Of a stretch of 64,000 bases of DNA, positions 41,737 through 56,502 are shown piece after piece. The notes below the pieces were generated by a model, which worked only from the letters and a program-made list of their open reading frames with translations, was not told where the DNA came from and did no database searches. A program made the translations under genes and the position numbers. The stretch is from Verrucomicrobiia bacterium (GTDB lineage: Bacteria > Verrucomicrobiota > Verrucomicrobiia > Limisphaerales > Fontisphaeraceae), in contig JAOAIT010000027.1 of the NCBI GenBank assembly GCA_026414565.1, positions 62,001 to 126,000 of the forward strand. The letters are read 5' to 3'. The number at the start of each line of letters is the position of its first letter. Within the stretch, counting starts at the first letter, position 1.

Positions 41737-44157
41737 TTATTCCGGCAGCCGGTATTTCAAGCCGGTGAGGCGGGTGCCATCCGGCTTGACGAGCCGGGCG
41801 CAAAATTCCCAGCCCAAATTGTTCTGGGTCAGTTTGATGAGCAGCGTATTCCACCCGGCCTGGAGGGTGAGGTCGGCCTTGTCCGAGCCGGGGGTCAGGG
41901 GACGGGCCACGTTGAGGGCGGCCACCTGGCGGCCGTTGAGCCAGATTTTCACGCCGTCATCGCTGCCAAATTCGAGGCGGGCGGGCTGCTCCTTTTCGGA
42001 GAACACCTGGGTGCGGAGATAGGCCACGCGTTGCTCGCCGCCGAGGGCCTTGAGCACATCCATGACGTAGGGCCGTTTGGGATCGGCGCCGGCGGGCAGC
42101 GGTTGCCAGGCGATGCCGGCGGCCTGGGCGGTTTCGGGCGGGAAGACCACCTCGAACAATTCCTGGAATGATTTGCCGGTTTGTTGGTAGGGGCCGGCCA
42201 ACTGCCAGAGGGTGATATAATCGGCCAGGGCCTCGATTTGTTGGAGGCGGGTTTGCAGTTCCTTCTGGCGGGCGGGATCGCTCACGTTTTTCAGGGCGGT
42301 CTGCAGGGCGCGCGTGCACTGGCCGGGATGCGCCCCGCCGAGGCTGGCCGCCAGCTCGGACACGGCCTGGGCGGCTTCCTGTTGCAGGGCGGCGTCGGCG
42401 GTGAGCTGGGCGGCCAAGTCCAGGGATTCGAGGGCCGGCACGGCTGCCAGGCGGCCCAGGATGAGCCGTTTTTCCTCGGGGCGGCCGGCCAGCCCGAGCA
42501 GCTCGCGCAGGGTGGCGGCCCGCTGCGCGGTGGCGCCGCCGGCGCCTTCCTCATGGATCAGGCGGGTGGCGCCGCGCACGGCAAGCACGCGGACAGTGTT
42601 TTCCGGCGCGGAGCGGGCCAGCTCGAGGAGCGCGGGCAGCACGGCGGGATCCACCGCGTCGCACAAGGCCCGGAGGGCGGCCAGGCGGGCCTGGGGATCG
42701 GCGTCCTGCCGGCCGGCCAGGAGGGCGGCGCGGCTGCGTTCATGCCGGAGCTGGGCCAGCACGGGATACAAGGCCGCCCGGGCGGGCGGCTCGCCTTGCA
42801 GGCCGGCCACCAGCGGCTCGGGGGAGAAATCCGGGCGGGATTGGAGGCGGCGGCAGGCCTCAAGAAGGGCCTCCTGGGCTGCGCGGCGCCGGGCTTCGTC
42901 GGGGGCTTGTTGCAGGGCCTGGACCAGCGCGCCAAGCTGGGCGGGCTGGGCCAGTTGTCCCACGGCGCGCACGGCGGCGGCGCGGGCGTGGTCCGGGCCG
43001 GTGCGGGCCAGTTGGAGGAGCTGGGGCACGGCGGCGGTTTCCTGGCGGGCGGCGAGGGTCTGGATGATTTCGTTTTGCAGGGCGGGGGCGGCAGTGGGAA
43101 GCAGTTGCAACAGGGCATCGGCCAGCGGCTCGCGCAGCCGCGCCAGGGCCCGGCGGGCGGCCTTTTGCTCCTGGGGGTCGGTGGCGGTGGCCGCCTGCAA
43201 CATGGCGGGGGCCTGGGCGGCCTGGCCCAGCTCGGCCAGGGCGTCGAGGGCGGCGATGCGCACGTAACTCTCGGGGCTTTGCAGGGCCGCCACGAGGGCG
43301 GGCACGGCCTGGCGCGAGCCATGACGGCGCAGAATCTCGATGACGGCGGCCTGCACCGGTGGCGGCAGTTGAGGCAGGAGGCGGGACAATTCCTGGGTAA
43401 TTTCGGGCGCCGTCAGCTCCGGCGCCACCTGGAGCGCGGCGCGTTGCTGAACAGCATCGGCGCCCAACAATCCCTCGCGCAGGAGGGTGAGGCGGCGTTT
43501 CTTATCCGCCCGGAGCAGGCCGCACCAGGCGGCCTGGCGGACGGCGGGAGGTTCCTGGGCCGCCGTCAGGCGTTGGTAAACTTTGAGGGCCGCGGCGGGG
43601 TCAGGCCCATAGGCCGTGGCTTCTGCGGCCAGGAGCAGGCCGTCCACAACGGCGGTGCGCACGGGGCCGGTGGTTTTGTCCAGCAAGGGCTGCAGGAGTT
43701 TGAGGGCCTCGGCGCCGCCGCGCCTGCCGAGCGCGCGGGCGGCGGCAATGACGATGTCCGGGTTGCCATTGTTGAGGAAACGGGCCACGGGGGCGATGGG
43801 CATGTCAGGCCGTTCACCAAGCGATTGGAGCACGCCGGCTTTCAAGTCATCGCGGGTATCCGCCAGGGCGGCCACCAGGGCGGCAGTGGCCTGGGGGCCG
43901 GGCAGGGATTCCAGGGCATAGCGGGCCGAATGGGAAAGCTGGGGGTCCAGCAGCAGGCGGGCCAGGGCCGGCACGGCGGCGGCGGTGCCGATGCGCTTGA
44001 GCTGCGCGCAGGCGGCGTCTTTTTGCTCGGGCGGCGCGGCACTTTGCAGCACGGCAATGAGCTGGGCTTCATTGGTGGCGGGGGCCGCGGGGGCGGTCCC
44101 CGGCAGGCAAGCCAGCAGGCCCAGGAGCGCGAGCAGGGGCGGCAATGGGGTTTTCAT
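41737..44157 (-). CDS. Secreted HEAT-repeat protein
   Basis: An 806-residue exported protein with a signal peptide (PLPPLLALLGLLACLPGTAPA). More than fifteen HEAT-like helical repeats follow (for example AAVPALARLLLDPQLSH, VPALVAALQSPESYVRIAALDALAELG). The last about 100 residues form a beta domain with SDDGVKIWLNGRQVAALNV and LQAGWNTLLIKLTQNNLGW, resembling the PA14/CBM-like tails attached to Verrucomicrobial and Planctomycetal secreted proteins. The ATG at 44157 is chosen for the signal peptide. It is probably a scaffold or binding protein in the periplasm. It starts 48 bases after the oxidoreductase stop on the same strand, so the two may share a transcript. Confidence 0.82.
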   Translation of the reverse strand: MKTPLPPLLALLGLLACLPGTAPAAPATNEAQLIAVLQSAAPPEQKDAACAQLKRIGTAAAVPALARLLLDPQLSHSARYALESLPGPQATAALVAALADTRDDLKAGVLQSLGERPDMPIAPVARFLNNGNPDIVIAAARALGRRGGAEALKLLQPLLDKTTGPVRTAVVDGLLLAAEATAYGPDPAAALKVYQRLTAAQEPPAVRQAAWCGLLRADKKRRLTLLREGLLGADAVQQRAALQVAPELTAPEITQELSRLLPQLPPPVQAAVIEILRRHGSRQAVPALVAALQSPESYVRIAALDALAELGQAAQAPAMLQAATATDPQEQKAARRALARLREPLADALLQLLPTAAPALQNEIIQTLAARQETAAVPQLLQLARTGPDHARAAAVRAVGQLAQPAQLGALVQALQQAPDEARRRAAQEALLEACRRLQSRPDFSPEPLVAGLQGEPPARAALYPVLAQLRHERSRAALLAGRQDADPQARLAALRALCDAVDPAVLPALLELARSAPENTVRVLAVRGATRLIHEEGAGGATAQRAATLRELLGLAGRPEEKRLILGRLAAVPALESLDLAAQLTADAALQQEAAQAVSELAASLGGAHPGQCTRALQTALKNVSDPARQKELQTRLQQIEALADYITLWQLAGPYQQTGKSFQELFEVVFPPETAQAAGIAWQPLPAGADPKRPYVMDVLKALGGEQRVAYLRTQVFSEKEQPARLEFGSDDGVKIWLNGRQVAALNVARPLTPGSDKADLTLQAGWNTLLIKLTQNNLGWEFCARLVKPDGTRLTGLKYRLPE

Positions 44158-44204
44158 GGGAGATCGGGGAGGGAAGGGATGCATGGGTTGGCGGAGGGAA
44201 AAAC

Positions 44205-45521
44205 TTAAACCTGCCACGGCGGGCGTTGGGCGATGGAGAGGAGGCGGTTGGCTTCGTCATCGCCGACAAACAGCTCGGCATGGGGATCCCATTTGAGGGG
44301 ACGTTGCAATATCTTCTCAATGCCGCCCAGCAGCAGGGCGCTGGCGGCGCGGTGGGCGATGTCGGCGTCGCAGATGGTTTTTTTCCGGGATTTGACGCAT
44401 TCCAGGAAATTGCCGGAGTGGCTGTCACTATAATAGAGGTGGACTTCGTTGGGGCGCAACGGCTCGCGGATGATGTCCTCGGGGTAGCTCACCAGATTGC
44501 CGCGGTCCACGGCCAGGCGGCCATGGGTGCCCACGAAGCAGCAGCCGCCATCGTGGCCGACGCGCTCGCCGGGGTAGGGCCGGCCGTGGACGACGACGCC
44601 GTTGGCGTAGCGGTAGGAGGTGCGGCCTTCGTCCATGAAGAGGTCCACCGGGCCGGAGTCATCCATGCCGGCGGCCCATTGCACGATGTCGTAGTGATGC
44701 TGCCCCCAGTTCAACTCGCCGATGTCGTAACGATGGGCGCCGGTGTTGCCGTCGTAGGGCGCCCAGGGGGCGGGGCCGAGGTACAAATCCCAGTCCAGCG
44801 TTTCGGGGACGGGTTTGGGGGGGCCGAACTTGGCGCCCCAGGCGATGGCGCCGCCGTCGCGGTAGGCGTAGATTTCCTTGAGCTGGCCGAGGCGCCCGCT
44901 GCGGACGTACTCGCAGGCGCGGCGGAAATAGCCGTTGTACTCGCTGCGCTGCTGGGTGCCGGCCTGATAGACGCGCCCGTAGCGGCGCACGGCCTGGAGC
45001 ACGGCCTGGCTTTCGCGGACGGTGCAGGCGGTGGGTTTTTCGCAGTAAATGTCCTTGCCCGCCTGGGCGGCCATGACGGACATGACGGCGTGCCAGTGGG
45101 CCGGGGAGGCAATCAGCACGGCGTCAATGTCGGCGCGGTCCAGCACGTTGCGGAAGTCGGCATACGCTTCGCAGGGGCGGTAGCCGGTCTGGCCATAGGT
45201 TTGTTGGTAATGTTGATTCACGCGGTCTCGGGCGCGCTCGCGGCGGTCCCGCCACACATCGCAGACGGCGAGCACCTGCACATCCTTGCGGGCGGTGTAA
45301 CCGCCGGCCAGATACGTCCACGCGCCGCCCAGCAAATGCCCGGCGCCCTGGCCGCCGACACCGATAAAGCCCATGGCCACCCGCTCACTGGGGGGCAGCG
45401 CGCCGCCGCGGCCCAGCACGGGAGCGGGGAGACAGAGGGGGGCGGTGAGACAGGCGCCGGTCAGGGCCAGTTGCCGCCGGAGAAACTGGCGCCGCGAGAG
45501 TCCCGGGGATGCGGATTTCAT
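44205..45521 (-). CDS. TAT-exported Gfo/Idh/MocA-family oxidoreductase
   Basis: A 438-residue NAD(P)-dependent oxidoreductase. The N-terminus SRRQFLRRQLALTGACL is a twin-arginine signal, so it is probably exported folded with its cofactor. The Rossmann fold starts MGFIGVGGQGAGH, followed by VLAVCDVW and DAVLIASPAHWHAVM, with EKPTACTVRESQAV as the family EKP motif. RYDIGELNWGQHHYDIVQWA near residue 270 is the catalytic-domain segment. Substrates of the exported group are sugars or sugar acids. It is the first gene in a minus-strand run with the HEAT-repeat protein and is divergent from nusA. Confidence 0.9.
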   Translation of the reverse strand: MKSASPGLSRRQFLRRQLALTGACLTAPLCLPAPVLGRGGALPPSERVAMGFIGVGGQGAGHLLGGAWTYLAGGYTARKDVQVLAVCDVWRDRRERARDRVNQHYQQTYGQTGYRPCEAYADFRNVLDRADIDAVLIASPAHWHAVMSVMAAQAGKDIYCEKPTACTVRESQAVLQAVRRYGRVYQAGTQQRSEYNGYFRRACEYVRSGRLGQLKEIYAYRDGGAIAWGAKFGPPKPVPETLDWDLYLGPAPWAPYDGNTGAHRYDIGELNWGQHHYDIVQWAAGMDDSGPVDLFMDEGRTSYRYANGVVVHGRPYPGERVGHDGGCCFVGTHGRLAVDRGNLVSYPEDIIREPLRPNEVHLYYSDSHSGNFLECVKSRKKTICDADIAHRAASALLLGGIEKILQRPLKWDPHAELFVGDDEANRLLSIAQRPPWQV

Positions 45522-45679
45522 GGTGCAGGATTATGCGGGCGGCGGCGCGGATGTAAAACTTAAACTGGGGCCAGGCATTTTCTGAATGTCAGAGGGGCGG
45601 AAGGTTCAGCGGAGACGGGTGAGGAGGCGGCACGGTGGGGCCGGGGGCCGCCCGGGCTGTTGGCATCGGAAAAAAGCGC

Positions 45680-45713
45680 TTGACGTTAAAGGAGCAGGGG
45701 TGTTAATTATACG
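45680..45713 (+). promoter_or_regulatory. Possible promoter of the nusA operon
   Basis: TTGACG (45680-45685) is a good -35 element. Seventeen bases later TTAATT (45703-45708) is a weak -10, and the overlapping TATACG (45708-45713) would give a 22-base spacer. It lies between the divergent oxidoreductase start and the nusA leader hairpins. Position and A/T content support a promoter here, but the elements are imperfect. Confidence 0.35.
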
Positions 45714-45730
45714 CTGACATTGCAAAACGG

Positions 45731-45786
45731 GCCGGCGTCGAGCCGGCATGAGAAAAGTCGGGAAGGCAACTTCGTCCGACTTTTTT
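45731..45786 (+). promoter_or_regulatory. Tandem hairpins in the nusA leader, possible attenuator
   Basis: A GCCGGC/GCCGGC stem (45731-45736 with 45742-45747) is followed by a 9-bp stem AAAAGTCGG/CCGACTTTT (45753-45761 with 45776-45784). A T run (45781-45786) completes an intrinsic-terminator layout, 33 bases before the nusA ATG at 45820. Because it precedes nusA in the same direction and no plus-strand gene lies upstream, it may attenuate this operon. NusA is known to affect hairpin pausing and to autoregulate in some bacteria; that link is inference here. Confidence 0.6.
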
Positions 45787-45819
45787 GTTCCCCACGGGGA
45801 ACGGAGCACTGGATGGGTT

Positions 45820-47100
45820 ATGAACGCCGAAATCTTATCCGTATTAGAGTACTGGGAACGCGAGAAGGGGATTTCGCGTGAGGAATTGATCAAGATCCTC
45901 AACGATTCCCTGCTGGCGTCCGCGAAACGGGCGGTAGGCCCCGCCCGGGAACTGCGTTGCACGATTGACCCCAAGAGCGGGGAGATCAAGGCGTTTGCTC
46001 GTCTGGTGGTGGTCCAGAAGGTGGTATCCAAACATGACCAAATTTCCCTATTTGACGCCCGGCGGGTCAAACCGGACGCGCAACTGGGGGAGGAGGTCGA
46101 GATAGAGGTGACGCCGGCGGGTTTTGGGCGGATCGCCAGCCAGCACGCGCGGCAGATTCTGACGCAGCTTTTGCGGCGGCATGAGAAGCGCCTGGTCTAT
46201 GAGGAGTTTAAGGATCAGGTGGGGGGCTTGATCACCGGGGTGGTGCGCCGGTTCGAGCGGTCGGATGTGTATGTGGATTTGGGCAAATGCGAGGCGGTGC
46301 TGCCCAACCGGGAACGGGTGCCCAATGAGGATTTCCAGCCCAATGACCGCGTGTTGTTCTATTTGAAGGCGGTGCAGGACACGCCCCGGGGGCCGGAGAT
46401 TATTCTCTCGCGGGCGGATCCGGAGTTTGTGATCAAGCTGTTCAAGCGGGAGGTGTCGGAGATCAATGACGGCACCATCGAGATCAAGGCCATTGCGCGG
46501 GAGCCGGGTTTCCGGACCAAGATTGCCGTGTACACGCGGGATCCGAAGGTGGATCCGGTGGGGGCGTGTGTGGGGCTGCGCGGGGCGCGGGTGCGGAACA
46601 TTGTGCGGGAGCTGAACAATGAAAAGGTGGACATCATCCCGTGGGATCCCAACATCCGCAATTTGATCACCAACGCGCTGAGTCCGGCCCGGATTAAATC
46701 ATTTGAGATTGACGAGGCCCGGCGGCGGGTGAAAATCTGGGTCAGCGAGGATCAGCTCTCCCTGGCGATCGGCCGGCGCGGGCAGAACGCGCGGCTGACC
46801 TCGCGCCTGACCGGCTGGGAAGTGGATATTGAGGCGGAGGCGGTGGCGCCGGTTGGCGGTTTTGCCGAGAAGGTGGCGCAAGCCATCGAGACGTTGGCGG
46901 CCATTCCGGGCATCAACCGGGAGATGGCCGATGCGCTGGTGCACGGCGGGTTGACCAGCCTGGAAGATGTGCTGCAGGCGGGCGAGGGGTATCTTGCCAG
47001 TCTGGAGCGGGTGGGCGAGCACGCGGCGGCGATCATGCAGGCCGCGCGCGAGGAAGCCGCCCGGCGGCAGATCAAACTGGGCGAAACCACCGCCGCCTAA
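45820..47100 (+). CDS. nusA: Transcription termination/antitermination factor NusA
   Basis: A 426-residue RNA polymerase-binding factor. It has an N-terminal RNAP-binding domain (about 1-125), an S1 domain (GVVRRFERSDVYVDLG) and two KH domains with VGLRGARVRNI and AIGRRGQNARLTSRL. A C-terminal helix-hairpin-helix repeat of about 60 residues has IPGINREMADALVHGG. The ATG at 45820 (MNAEILSVLEYWERE) is chosen because the upstream frame runs through the leader terminator hairpin. It is first in the nusA-infB-rbfA-nrnA-truB-ribF run. The rimP gene that usually precedes nusA is absent, and the upstream neighbour is on the other strand. Confidence 0.96.
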   Translation: MNAEILSVLEYWEREKGISREELIKILNDSLLASAKRAVGPARELRCTIDPKSGEIKAFARLVVVQKVVSKHDQISLFDARRVKPDAQLGEEVEIEVTPAGFGRIASQHARQILTQLLRRHEKRLVYEEFKDQVGGLITGVVRRFERSDVYVDLGKCEAVLPNRERVPNEDFQPNDRVLFYLKAVQDTPRGPEIILSRADPEFVIKLFKREVSEINDGTIEIKAIAREPGFRTKIAVYTRDPKVDPVGACVGLRGARVRNIVRELNNEKVDIIPWDPNIRNLITNALSPARIKSFEIDEARRRVKIWVSEDQLSLAIGRRGQNARLTSRLTGWEVDIEAEAVAPVGGFAEKVAQAIETLAAIPGINREMADALVHGGLTSLEDVLQAGEGYLASLERVGEHAAAIMQAAREEAARRQIKLGETTAA

Positions 47101-47183: not shown

Positions 47184-49853
47184 ATGCCTGTTCGGATTTA
47201 CGAAATTGCCCGCAAACTGGGCCTCGAAAGCAAGGTTGTCCTGGCCAAGGCCAAGGAGCTGGGCATCACCACGGCCAAGGTGCCCGCCAGCACCCTCGAT
47301 AAGATCACCGCCGAGTATCTCGAACAGCACCTGCCCCATCCGGAGACCCCGGCCGCCGCGCCCGCCGAACCCCCCCGGGAGGCCCCCGCGCCGCTCGAAG
47401 AGATCAAAGTAGTCACCGAAGCCTCCGCCGCCGAAGCCGAGGCGGCAGTGGAGCCGGCCGCGGCGCCTGTGGAAACCCCGGCGGCGCCCGAGGCGCCAGC
47501 CATGGTGGAAGCGGCCCCGCCGGCGGCGCCGGTGCTGGCCATGGTGGTGACGCCTCCGGCGGAAACCACCACCGCCACCCCGGCGGCTCCGGAAACGGTG
47601 CCGGCGGAGATTGTGCCGCCCGCTGACAAGGCGGCGCCGGCCGAGGCGCCGGCCCCCGTGGAGGCTCCGCCTCCCACCGTGGTTTCTCTGGTGGAGACTC
47701 CGCCGCCCGCCCCGGCTCCGGCCGAACCGGCCTCCCTCGCCGTGGCCCCTGCGGCGGCCCCGGTGGTGGCGGCTCCGCCGCCTGCGCCGGCCGCCCCCGC
47801 CCCGGCGGCTCCTGCGGAGCCTCCGGCGCCGCCGCCGCCCCCGCCTGCCCCGCCGCCGCCGCCCAAACCCCAGATTGGCGAGAAGGTGGGCTTTGTGGAT
47901 TTGAAGAAGCTGGGCTTTGGGCGTCCGGCCGCCAAGGCCGCGCCGCCGCCCAAACCGGAGCGGGAGAAGGAGAAAGAGAAGGAGAAACCGGCCAGGAAAC
48001 CGGAGCCGCCGCGGCCGGCCGCGGCGCCGCGGGCGCCGGTGATTGTGGCGCCGGCCAACGCGCCGGTGATCACGATGAAGCCGCCGATCATCGTGCGGGA
48101 TCTGGCGGAGAAAATGAACCGGCGGCCCTTCCAGATCATTGCGGATTTGATGGAGTCGGGCGTGTTTGCCACGGTGAATCAGGCGATTGATGAGGCGGTG
48201 GCGACGCGCATTTGCGCCAAGCACGGCTTCCGTTTCGAGCTGGAGCGGCGCGATCGGAGCAAGGCGGTGCATCCGGTGGTGCGGAAGGCGCCGGACGTGG
48301 ATCCGGAGGACAAGCCGGAGGATCTCAAGCCGCGGCCGCCGGTGGTCACCATCATGGGCCATGTGGATCACGGGAAGACGACGCTGCTGGACGTGATCCG
48401 CAAGTCCAACGTGGCCGCCGGCGAGGCGGGCGGGATCACGCAGCACATCGGGGCCTACACCATTTCTTTTCCGCATCCCGATGACAAGCGGCGGATTCAG
48501 CAGATCACCTTCCTGGACACCCCGGGCCATGCGGCCTTCAGCGCCATGCGGGCGCGCGGGGCCAACGTGACGGACATTGTGGTGCTGGTGGTGGCGGCCA
48601 ATGACGGGGTGATGCCGCAGACGCTGGAGGCGCTGAGCCACGCGCAGGCGGCCAAGGTGCCGATCATCGTGGCCATCAACAAGTGCGATCATCCCGCCGC
48701 CAACCCGTTGAAGGTGCGGCAGCAGCTTAATGACAAGGGGCTGGTGCCGGATGAATGGGGCGGCAACACCATTTATGTGGAATGCTCGGCGCTGACCGGC
48801 AAGGGGGTGGACAAGCTGCTGGAGATGATTTTGTTGCAGGCCGATCTGCTCGAGCTCAAGGCCAATCCCAACCGCCCGGCCTCGGGCAACGTGATCGAGT
48901 CCGGGCTGGAGCCGGGCGGGCCGACGGCGACGGTGCTGGTGCGCAAGGGGACGTTGAAGGTGGGGCAGGTGATCCTGTGCGGGCAGTATTACGGCAAGGT
49001 GCGGGCCCTGATCAATGAGGACGGCCAGCGGCTCAAGGAGGCCGGGCCGTCGTACGCGGTGAAGGTGCTGGGGTTGAACGGCATCCCGGAGGCCGGCCTG
49101 GCCTTCCAGGTGGTGAAGGACGAGAAGGAGGCCCGCGAAGCGGCCGAGAAGGTGGCCATGGAGCACCGGGCGCGCGCCCAGGAGGTGCGCCAGGTGATGA
49201 CGTTGGAAAACCTGATGGACAAGCTGAAGGCCACCAACGAGAAGGTGCTGCGGGTGGTGGTGAAGGCGGACACGCAAGGCTCGGTGGAGGCGATTGTCGA
49301 GGCCCTCAAGCGCATCGAGTCCACCAAGGTGTCGCTGGAGATTGTGCACAGCGCGGTGGGGACGATCAGCGAAAACGATGTGGTGCTGGCGGCGGCGGCG
49401 AAGGCGGTCATCCTGGGCTTCCACACCCGGGTGGACAGCGAGGCGGCCGAGGCGGCCAAACGGGAGGGGGTCCAGATCAAGCTGTATGCCATCATTTACG
49501 AGCTGATTGACCAGGTGCGCGATGCCATGGCCGGCCTGCTGGAGCCGATCATCAAGGAAACGGTGATTGGCGCGGCCGAGGTGCGCAAGGTGTTCACCCT
49601 GTCCAAGGGGGGCAACGTGGCCGGCTGCATGGTGGTCCACGGCCGGGTGGCGCGGGGCAAGGCGCGCGTGGTGCGGCGGCGCAATGTCATTTACGAGGGC
49701 CTCATCAGCTCGCTGCGCCGCTTCCAGGACGAGGTGAACGAAGTGCGGGCCGGCATGGAGTGCGGCATCCGCCTGGATGGTTTCAACGAGTTTCAGGAAA
49801 ATGACACCATCGAGTGCTACATCCTCGAGAAGGTGGCCCAGAAACTGGAATAA
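47184..49853 (+). CDS. infB: Translation initiation factor IF-2
   Basis: An 889-residue GTPase that brings initiator tRNA to the ribosome. The N-terminal IF2N helix ([16 protein letters not shown]) is followed by a long, low-complexity linker rich in P, A and E (about 55-250). The G domain has GHVDHGKT at residues 392-399, then DTPGHAAF and NKCD, and domains II-IV end near [24 protein letters not shown], read in two parts. The start follows a short gap of 83 bases after nusA; the ylxR gene often found there is missing. The unusually long Pro/Ala linker is typical of high-GC genomes and explains the size. Confidence 0.97.
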
Positions 49854-49870
49854 CCCCTGACTTTCCCGCC

Positions 49871-50251
49871 ATGTCCGTGCGAGTTGAACGGGTGCGCGAA
49901 CTGCTCAAGCGCGAGCTGGGTGAACTCATCCGCCGGCAGTTGCCGGTGGACGAGGCCGGGCTGATCACGGTGAACGAGGTGACGGTGACCGGCGATCTGC
50001 AGAATGCCACGGTGTATTTCAGCATCCTGGGCGGGCCGGAGCAGCAGAAACGCGGCGAGGAGCTGCTGCAGCAGCGGCGGCTGCTGTTGCAAAACCTGCT
50101 CGGCCAGTCGGTGGTGCTGAAGTACACGCCGCATTTGAAGTTCGTGCGCGATGATTCCATCGCCCGCGGCGATCGCGTGCTGCGGATTCTCGACGAGCTG
50201 GAGAAGCAAACGCCCCCCGGGGATCGTGAAAGCCCGCCCAAAGATTCTTGA
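49871..50251 (+). CDS. rbfA: Ribosome-binding factor A
   Basis: A 126-residue KH-like protein needed for 30S maturation. It starts MSVRVERVRELLKREL, has ITVNEVTVTGDLQNATVYFS as the beta strands of the fold and KYTPHLKFVRDDSI near the end, and finishes with a charged tail. The ATG at 49871 is 17 bases after the infB stop; the longer frame overlaps infB and is not conserved-looking. It overlaps the next gene by 26 bases. Confidence 0.93.
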   Translation: MSVRVERVRELLKRELGELIRRQLPVDEAGLITVNEVTVTGDLQNATVYFSILGGPEQQKRGEELLQQRRLLLQNLLGQSVVLKYTPHLKFVRDDSIARGDRVLRILDELEKQTPPGDRESPPKDS

Positions 50252-51212
50252 ACGGCTGATCGCCGAGCTGCGGCAGCATCAGCGTTTTTGCGTGGTGGGC
50301 CATGTGCGCCCCGATGGGGACTGCATTGGCTCGCAACTGGCGATGACCCTGGCGCTGCAGGCGCAGGGGAAGGAGGTGGTCTGCTGGAATGAGGACGCCG
50401 TGCCCTCCAAGCTGCGGTTTCTGGATCCGGATCACCTGCTGCGGAAGCCGCAGGCCAACGGGGAGTTTGACTGTGTGATTGCGCTGGATTGCGCCTGTGT
50501 GGAGCGCCTGGGGCGCGCGGCGCAGTGCATCGAGCGGCGGCGGGTGCTGCTCAACATTGATCATCATCCCAGCAACACCCGCTACGGCGACATCAACTGG
50601 GTGGCCGCCCGCGCGCCGTCCACCGGCGAGCTGGTGTTCCGGCTGTTGAAGGAAATCGGCTGGCCCATCACGCCGCACATCGCCGACTGCCTGTTCACGG
50701 CGGTCTCCACGGACACGGGATCTTTTCAATATCCCACCACGCTGCCGAGCACCTATCACGTGGCGGCGGAGCTGGTGAAGCGGGGGGCCAACCTGGCCAA
50801 GATCTGCGACGAGGTGTACCAGTCCTATTCGCTGTCGCGGGTGCGGCTGGTGCGCCATCTGTACAACAAGTTTCGCCTGACGCATCGGGATCAGATTGCC
50901 TACTTCTGGCTCAAGCAGGCCGACTTTGCCCGCACGGGCGCGGCCAAGGAAGACGCCGAGGGCCTGATTGACCACCTCCGGGCCATTGAGCCGGTGGTGG
51001 TGGCGATGGTGTTTGAGGAGGTGGCGCCGGAGCTGATCCGGGTGAGCTTTCGCAGCAAGCGCCCGGAGGTGGACGTGAACAAGATCGCCGCGCAGTTTGG
51101 CGGCGGCGGCCACGCGGCGGCGGCCGGGGCGCGGGTGGCGGGCAGTCCGCTCTCGGTGCAGCGGCGGGTGCTGGCCGCGGTGCGCAAGGCGCTGGAGGCT
51201 GCGGGGATTTAA
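50226..51212 (+). CDS. nrnA: DHH-family oligoribonuclease/pAp phosphatase (NrnA-like)
   Basis: A 328-residue DHH/DHHA1 phosphoesterase of the NrnA group, which degrades nanoRNA and dephosphorylates pAp. The metal-binding motifs are VVGHVRPDGDCIGSQLA, IALDCA and LLNIDHHPSN, with the DHHA1 motif GGGGHAAAAGA at the C-terminus. The GTG at 50226 is chosen because the longer frame reads through rbfA in another phase and lacks features. It overlaps rbfA by 26 bases and is followed 2 bases later by truB, so all are one transcript. This position between rbfA and truB is common in bacteria. Confidence 0.92.
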   Translation: MKARPKILERLIAELRQHQRFCVVGHVRPDGDCIGSQLAMTLALQAQGKEVVCWNEDAVPSKLRFLDPDHLLRKPQANGEFDCVIALDCACVERLGRAAQCIERRRVLLNIDHHPSNTRYGDINWVAARAPSTGELVFRLLKEIGWPITPHIADCLFTAVSTDTGSFQYPTTLPSTYHVAAELVKRGANLAKICDEVYQSYSLSRVRLVRHLYNKFRLTHRDQIAYFWLKQADFARTGAAKEDAEGLIDHLRAIEPVVVAMVFEEVAPELIRVSFRSKRPEVDVNKIAAQFGGGGHAAAAGARVAGSPLSVQRRVLAAVRKALEAAGI

Positions 51213-51214
51213 CC

Positions 51215-51937
51215 ATGCCGATACGCGAATTTTCTCCTCTGGATGGGGCCCTGCTGGTGGACAAGCCCGCCGGCCCCACCAGCCATGACGTGGTGGATGT
51301 GATCCGCCATCAATTCCAGCTCAAGAAGGTGGGCCATTGCGGGACGCTGGATCCCGGGGCCACGGGGCTGCTGGTGCTGGTGCTGGGGCTGGCGACGCGC
51401 CTGTCGGACAAGTTCATGGCGGCGGACAAGGTGTATGAGGGCGCCATCAAGCTGGGCGAGACCACGGATTCCTACGATGCGGATGGGAAGGTGCTGGCGC
51501 GCGCGGCGGTGCCGGCGGTGACGCTGGAGCAGCTCAACGAGCTGGCGGCCGTGTTTGAAGGGGATCAGATGCAACTGCCGCCGATGGTCAGCGCGGTGAA
51601 GAAGGACGGGGTGCCGCTGTACAAGCTGGCGCGCAAGGGCATCGAGGTGGAGCGCAAGGAGCGGCTGGTGCACATCTACCGGTTTCGTTTTGTGGCGGTG
51701 GAGCCGCCGCTGGCGTGGTTCCGGGTGGCCTGCACCAAGGGCACCTATGTGCGCACGCTGGCCCATGATTTCGGGCAGCGCCTGGGCTGCGGGGCCCATC
51801 TCAAACATCTGCGCCGGACGGCCTCGGGGCAGTTTGACGTGGCGCAGGCCGCGCCCTTCGAGGAGATCCTCCACTGGACACCCGCGGAGCTGGAGGCGCA
51901 CATCATCCCCTTCCTGAAACTGGTGCGGATGGAATAA
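51215..51937 (+). CDS. truB: tRNA pseudouridine(55) synthase TruB
   Basis: A 240-residue enzyme that makes pseudouridine 55 in the T-loop of tRNAs. The catalytic D46 lies in HCGTLDPGATGLLVL. The segments KVYEGAIKLGETTDSYDADG, AVKKDGVPLYKLARKG and CTKGTYVRTLAHDFG are characteristic. It is shorter than E. coli TruB because the C-terminal PUA-like extension is missing, which is normal in many phyla. Its start is 2 bases after the nrnA stop and ribF begins 36 bases later. Confidence 0.95.
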   Translation: MPIREFSPLDGALLVDKPAGPTSHDVVDVIRHQFQLKKVGHCGTLDPGATGLLVLVLGLATRLSDKFMAADKVYEGAIKLGETTDSYDADGKVLARAAVPAVTLEQLNELAAVFEGDQMQLPPMVSAVKKDGVPLYKLARKGIEVERKERLVHIYRFRFVAVEPPLAWFRVACTKGTYVRTLAHDFGQRLGCGAHLKHLRRTASGQFDVAQAAPFEEILHWTPAELEAHIIPFLKLVRME

Positions 51938-51973: not shown

Positions 51974-52897
51974 ATGCGCATCATTCATCAACCGGCGGAA
52001 TTGGCGGCCCAGGGGCGGTCGGTGTGCGCCGCGATAGGCGTGTTTGACGGCGTGCACCGCGGGCATCAGGCGGTGATGGGCCAGGCGGTGCGCGAGGCGG
52101 CGCAGCGGGGCGGGGTGGCGCTGGCCATCACCTTTGACCGCCATCCGCGCAGCGTGGTGGACCCGGAGCGCGCGCCGGCCCTGATTCAACCGCTTTCCCG
52201 CAAACTGGCCGCGCTGGCGGCGGCGGGGGCGGAGGTGGCGCTGGTGTTTCATTTTGACGAGGCCTTCCGCCGGCAGACGGCGGAGGCGTTTGTGCGCTCG
52301 CTGCAGGAGGGTTTGGGCTCGCTGGCCAGCCTGAGTGTGGGGGCCAATTTTTTCTTCGGGCACGGCCGCGCCGGCAATGTGGCGGTGTTGCAGGAGCTGG
52401 GGCGGCGGCACGGGTTTGCGGTGCACGTGGCCGAGCCGGTGTTGCACGGGGGCGAGCCGATCAGCAGCACGCGGGTGCGCGCCGCCATCCGGGCCGGACA
52501 GTTGGCCGAGGTGTCGGCCATGCTGGGGCGGCCGTATGCCGTGTGCGGGCCGGTGCAGCGCGGGCAGGGCCTGGGCCGGCAACTGGGTTTTCCCACCGCC
52601 AACGTGGCGGTGGCCGGGCTGGAGATGCCGCCCCTGGGCGTGTATGCGGCGCGGGTCCTCCTGCCGGACGGGCCGCATCCGGCGGTGGTGAACTGGGGGC
52701 GGCGGCCCACGGTGGCCGGGGGCGCGGTGGCGGCGCAATTTGAAGTGCATCTGCCCGGCTGGCAGGGGGATTTGTACGGGCAGGAGCTGGAGGTGCAACT
52801 GGGCCGGTATTTGCGGGGCGAGCAACGCTTTGGGGATGTGGCGGCGCTGCAGGCGCAAATTGCGCGTGATGTGGCTGCGGCGCTGGCCGACGGCTGA
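51974..52897 (+). CDS. ribF: Bifunctional riboflavin kinase/FAD synthetase RibF
   Basis: A 307-residue enzyme that phosphorylates riboflavin to FMN and adenylates it to FAD. The N-terminal nucleotidyltransferase has AIGVFDGVHRGHQAV and FDRHP, with ISSTRVRAAI at its end. The C-terminal kinase has GQGLGRQLGFPTANVAV and VNWGRRPTV. It is the last gene of the nusA operon and full length. No FMN riboswitch precedes it, as it is embedded in the operon. Confidence 0.95.
   Translation: MRIIHQPAELAAQGRSVCAAIGVFDGVHRGHQAVMGQAVREAAQRGGVALAITFDRHPRSVVDPERAPALIQPLSRKLAALAAAGAEVALVFHFDEAFRRQTAEAFVRSLQEGLGSLASLSVGANFFFGHGRAGNVAVLQELGRRHGFAVHVAEPVLHGGEPISSTRVRAAIRAGQLAEVSAMLGRPYAVCGPVQRGQGLGRQLGFPTANVAVAGLEMPPLGVYAARVLLPDGPHPAVVNWGRRPTVAGGAVAAQFEVHLPGWQGDLYGQELEVQLGRYLRGEQRFGDVAALQAQIARDVAAALADG

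Positions 52898-54027: not shown

Positions 54028-56502
<2,475 letters not shown>

Follow-up and report, generated by a model that had tools for sequence, protein, structure and literature searches.

The region directly ahead of nusA in a Verrucomicrobiia bacterium (contig JAOAIT010000027.1, within the window, a stretch of 64,000 nucleotides) is probably a NusA-dependent autoregulatory transcription attenuator of the nusA-infB-rbfA-DHH-truB-ribF operon, centred on a terminator hairpin here called P2. Related hairpins before nusA in much of the phylum, and before rimP-nusA in some distant bacteria, most likely let NusA limit its own production. A preliminary description of this DNA had proposed a conditional terminator with NusA autoregulation in the nusA leader, and comparison together with precedent leaves this as the best-supported reading. 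What is new is an attenuator standing directly before nusA in a phylum in which rimP was detected in none of 96 genomes, a base-pair swap in the window's order that breaks the GGG/CCC signature of related leaders, and a covarying extra 5' hairpin (P1) in the same order.

Anatomy of the nusA leader and its operon

Read from the sequence, the nusA leader extends from TTGACG at 45680 to the ATG at 45820 and holds three hairpins (Table 1). A 9-bp stem with six T ahead of nusA in the same direction, and another hairpin upstream of it, had already been described, and both could be confirmed as P2 and P1, respectively; the third, P3, was absent from that description. The region 45731-45785 folds at -29.8 kcal/mol (z = -4.77), a value equalled by none of 200 shuffles, and a chance hairpin was rejected by this z-score and by scanner controls in relatives. 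The outer arms of P2, AAAAGTCGG (45753-45761) and CCGACTTTT (45776-45784), include four A-U pairs that extend into the U run, and they enclose an inner stem of 4 bp (45762-45765/45770-45773), which is closed by a GCAA loop, and 2 bulged nt at 45774-45775. A simple terminator scan of the window did not list the P2 site, because its rule allows loops of 3-8 and the outer stem of P2 encloses more. In the window, 33 nt separate the U tract from the nusA ATG.

The transcript start is predicted near 45717 from the putative promoter, in which the window's own -10 element is a poor match. A NAnnnT hexamer at a spacing of 16-19 nt, mostly 17-18, could be found in 74 of 75 leaders of the order under a permissive rule without a chance control, and a consensus promoter scan of the window listed nothing at the nusA leader. 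An in-frame ATG at 45748 would give nusA 24 extra residues (45748-45819), translated through P2 and P3; it is probably unused, since just 21 of 74 order leaders have any ATG among the 62 nt ahead of the U tract, and a leader peptide was rejected on the same count.

The six genes from nusA to ribF presumably form one transcript. It had been noted that no plus-strand gene lies upstream, which is correct: on the upstream side, the closest gene matched by Pfam is encoded by the minus strand, and a 472-codon plus-strand frame antisense to it is taken for a by-product of high G+C. As an argument for a conditional terminator, however, this arrangement is weak, and it is the comparison with relatives that carries the case. 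An 824-residue frame on the minus strand (54028-56502) is convergent with the nusA operon, and we take its product to resemble a membrane-bound ion-pumping pyrophosphatase.

Table 1. Features of the nusA leader, its operon and the upstream neighbourhood (positions in the window)
Feature	Position	Strand	Basis and remarks
Oxidoreductase gene, closest Pfam-matched gene upstream	44205-45521	minus	Pfam
472-codon open frame, antisense to the upstream oxidoreductase gene	44145-45563	+	list of open reading frames
-35-like element TTGACG, nusA promoter (putative)	45680-45685	+	TTGAC position kept across order relatives
Weak -10 candidate AATTAT, 19-nt spacer	45705-45710	+	inferred from the window sequence
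P1 hairpin GCCGGC-GTCGA-GCCGGC	45731-45747	+	fold; covariation; near leader 5' end, order-specific
P2 terminator hairpin, 9-bp outer stem AAAAGTCGG/CCGACTTTT	45753-45784	+	fold, order-wide scan, phylum covariation
U tract, six T, then G	45781-45786	+	sequence; kept in order relatives
P3 hairpin GTTCCC-CACG-GGGAAC, directly 3' of the U tract	45787-45802	+	fold
nusA, first gene of the operon	45820-47100	+	Pfam NusA_N 1e-30, KH_5 3.2e-29
infB (IF-2)	47184-49853	+	Pfam IF-2, GTP_EFTU
rbfA frame as listed; the actual start probably lies within it	49814-50251	+	Pfam RBFA 3.4e-24
DHH/DHHA1 phosphoesterase, start uncertain	50151-51212	+	Pfam DHH, DHHA1
truB	51215-51937	+	Pfam TruB_N 3e-51
ribF	51974-52897	+	Pfam FAD_syn, Flavokinase

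Conservation and covariation of the hairpins

Relatives were collected by a NusA search of one-genome-per-species contigs, and the best 80 loci (63-72% identity) were chosen by NusA similarity, not by their leaders; they are labelled mostly Verrucomicrobia, Verrucomicrobiales, Pedosphaera and Limisphaerales, with others such as Akkermansia and Omnitrophota. The preliminary description had proposed looking for conservation of the hairpins, and a terminator module does stand ahead of nusA in all 80 of these best matches, consisting of TTGAC, about 95 nt, a terminator with at least six U, about 32 nt and the ATG. The distance from TTGAC to the U tract is 85-102 nt in all of them, the U tract has exactly six T in 77 and 8 or 9 in the remaining three, and the median from U tract to ATG is 32 nt. 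A hairpin with a U tract was found by scanning in 79 of 81 order leaders, compared with a mean of 2.4 and a maximum of 5 over 10 rounds of dinucleotide shuffling; the two leaders failing the scan (L030 and L047) have irregular stems. With the same scanner, the controls gave 1/81 on the reverse strand, 2/80 inside nusA and 4/77 at -400 to -200.

An alignment of 77 rows (A1; the window and 76 of the 80 loci, four having been dropped as their leaders were identical to another) showed the P2 stem to be nearly invariant in the order, with three of seven pairs never varying and no double changes, and P1 to carry double changes at four of five pairs. P1-like hairpins occur in 65 of the 79 leaders of the order (fraction in shuffles 0.12) but in only 5 of 82 outside it (0.06), and 54 of the 79 have a hairpin at the P3 position (0.24 in shuffles). 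In many members of the order (L001, L005, L011 and others), AACGGTAAAG(A) or a near form stands about 10-20 nt before P1, near the predicted start; it resembles the 5' arm of P2 and could pair with the 3' arm, an alternative pairing that was seen by eye in part of the order. Its role could lie at the start site, in contact with NusA or in alternative folding.

A leader model trained on the window's order (R1) matched 171 of 196 order genomes, and 106 of 111 among the better assemblies, mostly once per genome; since it was trained on the same order, these matches describe spread and are not independent proof. Re-examination of 13 of the 25 misses found seven without a nusA match and six with TTGAC and a P2-type terminator by eye. 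One missed leader, L278, has a bulged stem, and L279, L280 and L281 (genus g184 of family f93) retain the GTCGG...CCGAC stem with an interrupted U tract of the CTTCTGTTTTTTT type.

Across the phylum, R1 gave matches in 22 of 288 genomes, mostly weak, and among the 25 phylum matches listed nusA was in the same locus in five, close behind the match in L081 (the window), L089, L094 and L097 and about 390 nt away in L111. Leaders outside the order were therefore collected via the NusA protein, yielding 105 regions (41 loci from NusA searches, best matches first, 4 via R1 and 60 hand-picked from the lists of the same NusA searches) that are a sample and not every nusA-bearing genome. A hairpin with a U tract was found in 85 of these 105, including other hairpins by eye at L192, L250, L257 and L266, compared with a shuffle mean of 2.4 and 4 on the reverse strand; without the four R1-derived regions the count is 81 of 101. 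The 20 regions failing the scan include some in which a hairpin is visible by eye but is bulged or has a short U run (e.g. L194, L195, L197, L228 and L248) and others with no hairpin by eye (e.g. L184, L190, L204 and L217). At L167 the best-scoring hairpin differs from the core hairpin. TTGAC at the expected distance is missing from 17 of the 82 non-order "core" hits, among which L250 and L257 were wrongly counted.

Frequent stems outside the order are AAGTGGG...CCCACTTTTTTGTT, GAGTGGG...CCCACTCTTTT and AAGTGGGCC...GGCCCGCTTTTTTTTT, giving a phylum form GTGGG...CCCAC compared with GTCGG...CCGAC in the window's order. The fifth of the seven stem pairs is C-G in all 68 distinct order stems placed, the window likewise (L030 and L047 are outside this count), and outside the order G-C in 69 of 71 placed stems and G-T in two, under a placement pattern that restricted the swapped pair to G or C and left 8 non-order hits unplaced. 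The fourth pair varies between T-A, T-G and C-G, and A-T or G-C prevails at the first. Because outgroup leaders carry the GTGGG form, the GTCGG form seen in the window's order is probably derived.

Covariation of the stem was assessed in an alignment (A2) of 105 of the 148 distinct hairpins, namely 35 of the 69 rows from the order, which had been thinned, and 70 of the 79 from outside it; L166, L185, L214, L250, L261, L262 and L263 were left out for a wrong core, a non-core hairpin or being out of register, and L191 and L230 as near-duplicates. Double changes occur at five of seven stem pairs, which was equally achieved in 61 of 500 shuffles, and amount to 80 cells versus 23.9 in shuffles; the count of double-change cells, the pair types and the covariation score exceed all 500 shuffles. 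Slid registers give at most 21 cells and at most 65.9% pairing, compared with 99.5% of cells paired in the alignment, a percentage biased to structure because the rows were found by a hairpin scan, the kinds of pair change being less affected.

The exact P2 stem pattern occurs at one site in the bacterium's own genome, the minus-strand row of the search being the same site because it is near-palindromic. A second own-genome R1 hit (C53, 5e-4) was judged chance and rejected as a sign of a regulon because it lies inside a coding frame, presumably hisF. A second model (R2), built only from phylum hairpins, gave next-best own-genome hits at E 0.07, 0.10 and 0.32 (L274, L275 and L276), of which L274 and L275 were likewise rejected, as both look like ordinary 3' terminators, behind frames that we take to be an Rrf2-type regulator and rplI, respectively. 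This conserved RNA motif without an Rfam match, usually present once per genome, could be used for annotating nusA starts in the order.

Proposed NusA-dependent attenuation and its alternatives

In the proposed mechanism, a sigma-70-type promoter (TTGACG at 45680) would start a leader of about 100 nt, in which RNA polymerase would make P1 first and then, some 65 nt into the transcript, P2 with its U tract. Polymerase-bound NusA would aid the formation of P2 and lengthen the pause at the U tract, such that with plentiful NusA most transcripts would stop there as an RNA of about 65-70 nt, and with scarce NusA the polymerase would read through into the operon. Termination would thus take place at P2, NusA is the candidate effector by analogy with studied leaders, and P1 and P3 may each contribute.

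The choice of effector is informed by the gene content of the phylum. A search with Pfam RimP_N found rimP in none of the 96 phylum genomes mentioned above, nor in the bacterium's own genome, while 10 of the 14 genomes used as controls were positive. In this phylum RimP is therefore unlikely to act as effector, which speaks against it as a necessary effector and makes NusA, of all the products of the operon, the leading candidate. For the 5' arm of P2, pairing with upstream RNA, as expected of an antiterminator, had a median of 0.50 versus 0.58 in shuffled sequences (74 leaders), with 0.17 in the window; no antiterminator was thus found, which is what one would expect of a terminator driven by a factor. 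According to one account (PMC8060035), NusA acts where hairpins are suboptimal and U tracts are interrupted; the CTCTTTTG tails outside the order fit this description, whereas the window's six-U run fits it less well. P2 may indeed need no NusA, because in the window it looks like a good intrinsic terminator. The conservation of the stem sequence is a mark of selection, without telling by what, and as the genome has no second copy of the exact stem, it would be unusual for NusA, a general factor, to contact it in a sequence-specific way.

It is rather unlikely, although several observations would suit it, that the same operon is attenuated in response to another signal, such as NusG, the rate of elongation, the supply of nucleotides, temperature, or a protein of ribosome assembly or RNA binding that reads the stem or P1. 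The stem sequence is kept beyond pairing needs, P1 covaries and is order-specific, and the TTTTTTGTT tail could act as a pause signal rich in T, like the NusG motif TTNTTT (PMC8060035). Nevertheless, no Rfam family and no antiterminator was found in the leader, RimP is improbable in this phylum, and NusA is the only effector reported as shown for such a leader in the literature found (a 2025 review, PMC12288461). A fixed brake would require neither that the stem sequence be conserved nor that related hairpins exist in other phyla, and for this reason a constitutive leaky terminator that sets the read-through fraction is quite improbable, even though six U and a strong hairpin suggest termination independent of NusA. 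That low probability also covers a leader that is chiefly the source of a short stable RNA acting elsewhere, which would match a product of about 65-70 nt whose 5' end lies close to a covarying hairpin but lacks a known target. Intergenic terminators are common, and P2 might serve an upstream plus-strand transcript, or be bidirectional, and precede nusA by accident; this is hardly credible, as the promoter-like TTGAC lies upstream at a near-fixed distance in all 80 best relatives, the upstream gene is on the minus strand, and the reverse-strand scan gave a single hit in 81.

Autoregulation by NusA remains the preferred reading, and a broader version of it is conceivable, if doubtful: P2 might descend from an ancient NusA-sensing terminator of several phyla whose stem sequence is read by the elongation complex, kept before nusA where rimP is lacking, with the order's fixed G-C to C-G swap and its new P1 possibly matched by changes in NusA. 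If this were true, the swap and P1 would constitute a natural mutant set for mapping how NusA recognizes an RNA hairpin. More generally, the order-wide compensatory swap and P1 are natural variants that make it directly testable whether NusA reads the shape or the sequence of the hairpin.

Relation to known leaders of rimP-nusA operons

Among the open-access papers listed in literature searches, judged by titles and abstract openings, no study of a nusA leader in Verrucomicrobia was found. No Rfam family reached its gathering threshold anywhere in the window, including riboswitch, T-box and ribosomal-protein leader families; the best score in the leader was 14.9 bits for ar35 (gathering 45). 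RF01770, the gammaproteobacterial rimP leader, occupies the same operon and place as the window leader, yet it gave no match there up to E 10 and was above the gathering cut-off in none of 20 genomes, a single sub-threshold match in the bacterium's own genome lying elsewhere; a known Rfam RNA as the identity of the leader was thus rejected. The E. coli rimP leader, which scores 102 bits with RF01770, differs from the window leader in having two tandem hairpins of other stem sequences after the tRNA metY, and resembles it in that the first terminator ends in UUUUUUGUU, like P2. In the E. coli locus (L206, 2525-2625) this first terminator has a different stem followed by TTTTTTGTT, as in the order's P2. 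Two terminators upstream of rimP are described for E. coli (PMC6511841), where NusA is said to regulate its own operon.

Precedents also come from Bacillota. In B. subtilis, NusA is autoregulated via NusA-stimulated termination in the 5' leader, according to the 2025 review (PMC12288461), and the terminator tested there is presumably this same hairpin; B. velezensis, a relative of B. subtilis, however, has rimP as first gene, whereas the window operon begins with nusA. For the rimP operon of S. agalactiae, an RNA-seq study reports a short and a long form from one start, with termination 31 nt after it, and suggests NusA feedback (PMC4448216). The S. agalactiae leader is shorter than that of the window, and rimP is present.

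Sequence likeness across phyla was found with R2, run on seven foreign loci. At three of the seven it gave hits with E of at most 0.002 ahead of rimP or of a frame in its place: the B. velezensis leader (2e-4), with the form AGAGTGGG...CCCGCTCTTTTG and rimP annotated behind it as the beginning of the operon, and the leaders of Acetoanaerobium (1e-4) and Methylobacterium (0.0019), in both of which an unannotated frame before nusA is taken as rimP by position. These three hits have in common GAGTGGG...CC(A/G)CTC and a T run. Monoglobus, with annotated rimP, gave a weak match (0.21), and the other three of the seven loci, from E. coli, Neochlamydia and Tsukamurella, gave no leader match. In Neochlamydia (L268, 841-1000) nusA follows rpsA, with no R2 match between them, and judged from this one locus the element may be missing from Chlamydiota.

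Since a model built only from phylum hairpins finds rimP-nusA leaders elsewhere, the window element belongs with the "rimP-leader" attenuator, described by Naville and Gautheret (2010) as the commonest predicted attenuator. In their report (PMC2965389), it has a conserved stem GGGc(...)gCCC and a U stretch with no visible antiterminator, its place is the 5' UTR of the rimP-nusA-infB operon at a distance of 4-130 nt from the leading gene, and NusA is named as the best candidate effector. The window leader likewise lies in an operon 5' UTR, but its first gene is nusA; it has a U stretch of six T, and no antiterminator was found, with one alternative pairing, of AACGGTAAAG with the P2 3' arm, seen by eye in part of the order. 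The GGG...CCC signature of the same account is kept by most of the phylum but fails in the window's order because of the compensatory swap at one stem pair, and the order further differs by the extra hairpins P1, confined to it, and P3. The hairpin itself is shared with rimP leaders of some Bacillota and an alphaproteobacterium, so that an element known from rimP-nusA operons is now extended to a phylum where rimP is undetected and nusA comes first behind it in the window.
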